Shown here: one piece after another, positions 12,970-15,900 of the stretch
Position numbering within the stretch: the stretch's first letter is position 1
Layout of the letters: every line of letters starts with the position of its first letter
Assembly (NCBI GenBank): GCA_022432975.1
Contig: CM039514.1
Span: 9,779,519-9,843,518, forward strand
Direction: 5' to 3'
DNA: 64,000 nt
From: Begonia masoniana
Taxonomy: Eukaryota > Streptophyta > Magnoliopsida > Cucurbitales > Begoniaceae
The notes under the pieces: model-generated
Database searches by the model: none
Seen by the model: only the letters and a program-made list of their open reading frames with translations
Told to the model about the DNA's origin: nothing
Position numbers and translations under genes: made by a program

Positions 12970-15900
12970 CTAATGGCCTTCTAGTTTGGATTGGGTGGGT
13001 TCCAGTTCTTCTTTGTCAATTTTCCTGGCTCTGCTCACTTTACAGGAGTCATTTTCTGGTTTCACCTTTGCTTCCTCCTCTTGCTTTTGCAGGGCTTGAA
13101 TCAGAGCCTCCAAGTAAATTTCAGCATTCCCATTGATCGTCTTTGGCATCAAATGCTCTGCTACATCAGCCGGAGTCAGTTTAGCCTCCCCAAGCAACCG
13201 GCTAATCTCGGAAAACGAATGATGGGATTCAAGATTGAGGTAATTTTTAGCAAGCATCTTGAATGCTTCAAAGCTACAGTATGATAATTCTATATGCTTA
13301 TCCATTCTTCCTTTCCTAGTGATTGCAGGGTCGAGTTTCTCAACGTAATTAGTCGTAAAGACGATGAGTCTCTCTCCTCCGCAGGCTGACCAAAGCCCAT
13401 CGATAAAATTTAGAATCCCAGATAGAGTAACCTGGCTGGTTCTGGTGTCATTTTCTTCTCTCGTTAGTTTTTTTCTTATATCATTCTCTTCATCTGCTTC
13501 TTCTACCTCTTTTTTCTTCCTTCTTTGACCTGTAAGATCAAGTGAACAATCAATGTCTTCGATGACAATTATGGATTTGCTTGAGGTTTCAATCAGTAGT
13601 CTTCTTAACTCAGTGTTATCCCTCACAGCAGTCAATTCGAGATCGTAAATATCATAGCCGAGAAGATTAGCCATGGCAGTAATCATGGTGGATTTCCCAG
13701 TTCCTGGAGGGCCATAAAGAAGGTACCCTCTTTTCCAAGCTCTCCCTATCTTTGCATAGAAATCCTCAGCTTGGCTAAAAGCTATCAAATCCTCCATAAT
13801 TTCTTTCTTCTTCTCTTGCTCCAGTGCCAGAGTCTGAAATGTAGCTGGGTGCTCAAAGACCACATGCCTCCAGTGAGCTCCATGGTTGGTAAAGAGCTTT
13901 CTCTGTCTGTTTCTCATTCTAATTGTTTTACCCTCTTCCATAACATGCCTGAGATACTTCCCAATTATTAGATCCCTGTTTCTTTTATGGAAAGTAAGCC
14001 TATAGTATCTTCTCTCATCTGTAACTGAGCTAAAAGAAATAGACTGTGTTTTTGAAGCATGTTTGCCTGATGCCCACCATAGTTTTACTCCTTTAAACTC
14101 CTCAGCTACCTGCAGAATTGAAATCAGAAGTGGAGAAGTAGAGAAAAGTAAATGATAAATTTTATTCCCCACTCATTGTGATCACCTCTTCATTATAATC
14201 CATGCTGAGAACTAAAGACTGGCTGTTATTTTTTTTTTTTTTTTTTTTTTTTTTTTTTTTTTTTTTTTTTTTTTTTTTTTTTTTTTTTTTTTTTTTTTTT
14301 TTTTTTTTTTTTTTTTTTTTTTTTTTTTTTTTTTTTTTTTTTTTTTTTTTTTTTTTTTTTTTTTTTTTTTTTTTTTTTTTTTTTTTTTTTTTTTTTTTTT
14401 TTTTTTTTTTTTTTTTTTTTTTTTTTTTTTTTTTTTTTTTTTTTTTTTTTTTTTTTTTTTTTTTTTTTTTTTTTTTTTTTTTTTTTTTTTTTTTTTTTTT
14501 TTTTTTTTTTTTTTTTTTTTTTTTTTTTTTTTTTTTTTTTTTTTTTTTTTTTTTTTTTTTTTTTTTTTTTTTTTTTTTTTTTTTTTTTTTTTTTTTTTTT
14601 TTTTTTTTTTTTTTTTTTTTTTTTTTTTTTTTTTTTTTTTTTTTTTTTTTTTTTTTTTTTTTTTTTTTTTTTTTTTTTTTTTTTTTTTTTTTTTTTTTTT
14701 TTTTTTTTTTTTTTTTTTTTTTTTTTTTTTTTTTTTTTTTTTTTTTTTTTTTTTTTTTTTTTTTTTTTTTTTTTTTTTTTTTTTTTTTTTTTTTTTTTTT
14801 TTTTTTTTTTTTTTTTTTTTTTTTTTTTTTTTTTTTTTTTTTTTTTTTTTTTTTTTTTTTTTTTTTTTTTTTTTTTTTTTTTTTTTTTTTTTTTTTTTTT
14901 TTTTTTTTTTTTTTTTTTTTTTTTTTTTTTTTTTTTTTTTTTTTTTTTTTTTTTTTTTTTTTTTTTTTTTTTTTTTTTTTTTTTTTTTTTTTTTTTTTTT
15001 TTTTTTTTTTTTTTTTTTTTTTTTTTTTTTTTTTTTTTTTTTTTTTTTTTTTTTTTTTTTTTTTTTTTTTTTTTTTTTTTTTTTTTTTTTTTTTTTTTTT
15101 TTTTTTTTTTTTTTTTTTTTTTTTTTTTTTTTTTTTTTTTTTTTTTTTTTTTTTTTTTTTTTTTTTTTTTTTTTTTTTTTTTTTTTTTTTTTTTTTTTTT
15201 TTTTTTTTTTTTTTTTTTTTTTTTTTTTTTTTTTTTTTTTTTTTTTTTTTTTTTTTTTTTTTTTTTTTTTTTTTTTTTTTTTTTTTTTTTTTTTTTTTTT
15301 TTTTTTTTTTTTTTTTTTTTTTTTTTTTTTTTTTTTTTTTTTTTTTTTTTTTTTTTTTTTTTTTTTTTTTTTTTTTTTTTTTTTTTTTTTTTTTTTTTTT
15401 TTTTTTTTTTTTTTTTTTTTTTTTTTTTTTTTTTTTTTTTTTTTTTTTTTTTTTTTTTTTTTTTTTTTTTTTTTTTTTTTTTTTTTTTTTTTTTTTTTTT
15501 TTTTTTTTTTTTTTTTTTTTTTTTTTTTTTTTTTTTTTTTTTTTTTTTTTTTTTTTTTTTTTTTTTTTTTTTTTTTTTTTTTTTTTTTTTTTTTTTTTTT
15601 TTTTTTTTTTTTTTTTTTTTTTTTTTTTTTTTTTTTTTTTTTTTTTTTTTTTTTTTTTTTTTTTTTTTTTTTTTTTTTTTTTTTTTTTTTTTTTTTTTTT
15701 TTTTTTTTTTTTTTTTTTTTTTTTTTTTTGGACTACGTCAGCTCTGAGTCGTTTAGCTTGAGAAGATGAAGTGGAGGTAAGATAGCTTTCAATGGCGGAA
15801 TAAGCTTCACTGCGCATGAAACGCTCTCCGGTGGATTCATTGAAGGTGATCTGAATATAAGGGTAGACGTAACTGAAAAATCTGTGGGAGTATTTCTCCA

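Follow-up and report, generated by a model that had tools for sequence, protein, structure and literature searches.

A 1,501-base T run in an AAA-ATPase exon of a Begonia assembly, most probably filler of 500-base gaps

RESULTS

A BCS1/AATP1-like gene with a T run in its first exon

The window, a stretch of 64,000 nucleotides at C13:9779519-9843518 of the genome that contains it (G000; 795,452,319 bases in 308 contigs, with C1 at 84.9 Mb, C13 at 46.0 Mb and C14 at 45.9 Mb among the large ones), carries on its minus strand a predicted two-exon gene whose first exon is occupied for 1,501 consecutive bases by T (Table 1). A homopolymer scan of the window found no other letter within the run, and the second-longest homopolymer of the window has 18 bases (G). 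The minus-strand open frame containing the run covers 14162-16033 and encodes 623 amino acids. The reading frame is kept across the run, as 1501 mod 3 equals 1 and the same remainder is given by native tracts of 1, 4 or 7 A. Since 1,500 is divisible by 3, keeping the frame needs no selection.

Table 1. Parts of the AAA-ATPase gene and the T run within it (window coordinates).
Feature	Coordinates	Strand	Basis
Exon 1, part 5′ of the run in gene sense; ATG at 16009, 93 codons, AAA_assoc (PF14363)	15731..16009	-	Profile positions 2-63 of 96
Pure T run, read as probable filler of 3 x 500 plus one native T	14229..15729	.	Run length and genome-wide lengths
Exon 1, part after the run, ..NSQSLVLSMDYNEE	14186..14228	-	Open frame; exon read after removal of 1,500 bases
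Predicted intron, GT..AG, 76 bases	14110..14185	-	By eye from sequence
Exon 2, AAA (PF00004) and AAA lid (PF25568), open to stop	12970..14109	-	Pfam, open frame

The run interrupts the AAA_assoc domain. Pfam E-values were 2.7e-13 for PF14363, 2e-19 for PF00004 and 1.6e-28 for PF25568, the last being a lid of the At3g28540 type in exon 2, and the presence of all three domains places the gene among the BCS1/AATP1-like AAA-ATPases. Exon 2 is 60-77% identical to its relatives (120 listed of 7,041 matches); the named ones among these 120 are plant AAA-ATPases, many of them annotated as AAA-ATPase ASD, and the rest are unnamed plant proteins. The first-pass annotation had reported a pure 1,501-base homopolymer that keeps its frame inside an exon of an otherwise intact AATP1-like gene, and it was right in coordinates, base and frame.

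Other features of the window were recorded as well. At 2733-3687 a 45-base unit is repeated perfectly, in 21.2 copies that are 100% identical; this array is embedded in a diverged tandem array with 24/82-base units, to which AAGACAAAA joins it on both sides, and is either very recent or another product of assembly. A pure (TA) array of 233.5 copies with zero mismatches occupies 37630-38096, and a 16-base unit is repeated 66 times at 39208-40269, the first few copies differing and the others identical. A gene at 7407-8923, which from its look we take to encode a PPR protein, is spread over three overlapping frames and is either a pseudogene or affected by indel errors. Three G runs of 17-18 bases lie within ~1.1 kb (42167-42184, 42636-42652 and 43209-43225). 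Elsewhere in the nuclear genome, pieces of plastid matK gave 77 matches (for example L066 and L067), most of them broken; the L067 copy shares 87% identity with matK of Begonia and Hillebrandia, the next families reaching at most 80%, and this places the plant in or near Begonia.

The exon read without the run

Dropping exactly 1,500 bases from the exon yields RLRADVVHNSQSLVLSM, which reads RLRAD-VVHNSQ-SLVLSM, with one A left and six residues between RLRAD and SLVLSM. A native tract of 4 A would make this spacing seven residues and one of 7 A would make it eight. Of the 120 listed homologues, 79 allowed the spacing to be scored (the 41 without the motif were left out); it was six in 69, seven in 8, five in 2 and eight in none. 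The sole other exon-1 relative in the genome at E < 0.001, a paralogue at C1:10622787-10623050 that is 56% identical and uninterrupted, also has a spacing of six, and the longest run of K in the 120 listed homologues is 5. By these counts, a single A suits the spacing better than a native tract of 4 or 7 A would. Because a single A gives the commonest spacing of the family, the run did not grow from a notable A tract. The real exon sequence appears to run straight on across the site, with no bases missing; in the plant itself the gene most likely has a single A here and no lysine tract.

Runs of T and A across the genome

The window run is one of thousands of its kind. Over the whole 795 Mb genome, T40 had 1,787,829 matching positions on one strand and 1,739,690 on the opposite strand, and T/A runs of at least 34 bases numbered 5,533 by start pattern (2,790 plus 2,743) and 5,527 by end pattern. 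Lengths were taken from a sample in which the first 100 starts were paired with the first 100 ends, covering C1 up to 13.43 Mb. These 100 runs hold 60,944 T40 positions; scaled to 5,533 runs, this would be ~3.4 million, and as the genome-wide count was 3.53 million, the sample is not odd in T40 content.

Forty-five of the sampled runs were 34-427 bases long and 55 were at least 450. Among the latter, 23 exceeded a multiple of 500 by 0-6 bases, against 0.77 expected (binomial p 3e-28). Such a length would result from inserting exactly 500 bases next to a few native T/A; the window run fits this pattern, as 1,501 is 3 x 500 + 1. Twelve of the 55 were exact multiples (500 in nine, 1000 in one and 1500 in two), meaning that no further native T/A adjoins them. 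Fixed-unit lengths of the kind expected from placeholder gaps were not seen in the other 32, some of which fall just below a multiple of 500 (482, 479, 473, 1974, 1975, 1979) and others elsewhere (1190, 1369, 1845, 7935). At compound places, T797-GC-A703 sums to 1502 and T951-A50 sums to 1001. With 7,935 T, the run at G000:C1:13416827-13424761 is the longest of those sampled; it belongs to a group of runs clustered at 13.40-13.43 Mb.

Both letters occur on the one contig sampled (31 T and 24 A in the 55 long runs), and the long runs are clustered, with a mean spacing of one per 229 kb and a median of 76 kb. Wherever a T and an A run lay within 200 bases of each other in the 100-run sample, T lay to the left of A (4 of 4 places), and the 13 neighbouring pairs of long runs less than 5 kb apart followed no firm rule (TA 6, AT 3, TT 3, AA 1). 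No G or C run of at least 10 bases was found in the listed loci L009-L053. At L051 and L052 there are local tandem units, each with a T tract of 14-108 bases, which differ from the runs in 500-base steps and may be natural.

Flanks of other runs

The flanks of 25 long runs were readable, and for each run the right flank was searched for a 20-base seed taken from near the end of the left flank. The seed was repeated at 8 of the 25, clearly in 6 and ambiguously in 2. Exact overlaps of the ends, with zero mismatches, measured 197 bases at L042, 192 at L045, 36 at L063 and 30 at L058, and longer overlaps of ~98% identity with indels measured ~387 bases at L049 and ~3.3 kb at L040. The repeats at L043 and L060 lie within repetitive sequence, and at L043, where the two flanks occur a second time with ~650 bases between them, real sequence may be missing rather than overlapping. 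The exact overlaps of 30-200 bases, as well as the longer ones that contain indels, have the look of contig ends left unmerged. Sequence from 192 bases to ~3.3 kb is directly repeated on either side of the T/A runs at L040, L042, L045 and L049, and these repeats are likely false duplications of contig ends.

At L061, where the run is exactly 500, 5 bases are repeated at the ends, and the corresponding junction is crossed unbroken by a related repeat of the window (17410-17727). End overlap was absent from 16 of the 25 pairs of flanks, including those of the window run, with flanks of just 300-400 bases in 11 of the 25; at L056 (two runs) and L057 one flank opens with the partner run, and the overlap test says little there. 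Continuation of sequence or overlap of ends, as expected on either side of a placeholder gap, was thus found in the protein register of the window gene and, with 6 clear and 2 ambiguous cases, in the flanks of the 25.

DISCUSSION

The window run is almost certainly machine-made assembly filler and not plant DNA, and we consider it very probable that it derives from placeholder gaps in 500-base units that were later written as T/A. That the letters stand in the sequence file is a separate matter from their presence in the plant itself, which is not supported. The reading starts from direct observations, namely the excess of 500-base steps, the repetition of such runs throughout the genome, the overlapping ends elsewhere and a register left undisturbed once 1,500 bases are taken out, from which we infer that the placeholder was a scaffold gap, as well as the manner of splitting and filling. 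The exon would have been split between two neighbouring bases during assembly, or two abutting contigs would have met there, and both ends would then have been set side by side again with 500-base placeholder gaps, three of them at the window run. As the letters are T/A instead of N, a later step must have overwritten the placeholders, and this step would have written T on one strand and A on the other. Where T and A runs lie close together, their order looks as if T had been extended outward from each edge, which would be expected of a gap closer that works into the gap from either side. A gap size of 500 N is customary in 3D-DNA. The 32 of 55 long runs that lie off the 500-base grid require partial filling or a second process.

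The published assembly of B. masoniana has 799.83 Mb and 15 pseudochromosomes (2n = 30), with a contig N50 of 0.44 Mb and Hi-C scaffolding; Canu was used to build it from PacBio reads, with two rounds each of Racon and Pilon (PMC7612470). The mean spacing of one long run per 229 kb is of the order of contig joins at such an N50. In a text search, the words "gap" and "3D-DNA" were absent from the main text of that paper. Gap-closing programs can close assembly gaps wrongly, as stated in the DENTIST paper (PMC8848313), and among the literature matches listed we found no paper describing exactly such homopolymer gap filling. One match that places "500 Ns" beside "3D-DNA" (PMC13282667) offers no evidence on gap size, as its Ns are nanoseconds.

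An artefact had already been preferred to an expansion or a programmed block in the first-pass annotation, and the thousands of like runs, many in 500-base steps, bear this out; the source it proposed, a short A run, is not supported. In that account, an error of consensus or polishing inflated a native tract of 4 or 7 A that was miscounted, and it would agree with the frame being kept for 1, 4 or 7 A, with the 32 of 55 long runs off the grid and with the polishing of PacBio contigs in what is thought to be the same assembly (PMC7612470). We regard it as very unlikely, since slippage or miscounting gives no reason for 500-base steps, with 12 of 55 lengths exact and 23 of 55 within 0-6 bases above a multiple, and since the spacings that 4 and 7 A imply occur in 8 and 0 of 79 homologues versus 69 for a single A. 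Somewhat less improbable, although still unlikely, is an artefact of the reads themselves, for example reads with 3′ T tails built into contig ends, so that no gaps were filled. The order of T and A in the four close pairs, as if T had grown outward from contig ends, the overlapping ends at several runs and the many off-grid lengths all point that way, but the 13 pairs under 5 kb show no firm rule and tails would not come at exactly 500, 1000 and 1500; we rejected read tails as the sole cause of the runs. A slip that turned N into T (or A) over the finished chromosomes was also thought unlikely, given 2,790 runs against 2,743 and the mixture of T and A on one contig, and such a slip may instead have occurred at contig level, before scaffolding.

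The biological readings of the run are not supported. A real expansion allele or a programmed block, with ~500 lysine codons in the living plant, would be consistent with the kept frame and with two exons that are otherwise open and contain their domains, but retention of the frame is expected without selection for 1,500 bases, the genome holds thousands of like runs with many in 500-base steps, none of the 120 listed homologues has a K run above 5, and not one interruption occurs in 1,501 bases. Exact steps, a single native A as the best fit and this purity are not what natural homopolymer expansion would leave, and we consider the reading extremely improbable. Even harder to credit is the reading that pure poly(A)/poly(T) inserts truly exist by the thousand in the plant's genome, many of them in steps of 500 bases, and that one adds ~500 lysines to an AAA-ATPase. 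The poly(A) tail of a reverse-transcribed insertion, which would find some agreement in the direct repeats of 30 and 36 bases that flank two other runs (L058 and L063), is to be given as little credence as the expansion: the window run is pure T with no element body and no flanking direct repeat, the other flanking repeats (192 bases to 3.3 kb) are far too long for target-site duplications, and fixed 500-base lengths are not expected of tails. The earlier conclusion that no element or target-site duplication accompanies the run, and that it is not a retroposon tail, is in agreement with this.

As biology the run is of no importance, and as a warning it is. If the analysed copy is the public one, ~3.5 Mb of that assembly consists of T/A filler or other long T/A tracts, to which gap filters based on N are blind. 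Such filler breaks genes such as the AAA-ATPase of the window and gives predicted proteins tracts of lysine or phenylalanine; in places it borders contig ends that are likely to have been falsely duplicated.

Compared with known systems, the window gene shares PF14363, PF00004 and PF25568 with the plant BCS1/AATP1-like AAA-ATPases annotated as AAA-ATPase ASD, mitochondrial-like, and the filler is its sole difference from them. The run itself is like the placeholder (scaffold) gap of a Hi-C assembly in that units of a fixed 500 bases separate ends that adjoin or overlap, with no apparent loss of real sequence at the window run, whereas such a gap is written as N and the runs here are T/A, many of them off the grid. 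With wrong gap closure, as raised in the DENTIST paper (PMC8848313), the runs have in common that untrue sequence closes a gap, but here that sequence is a pure homopolymer, often of the placeholder's own size.
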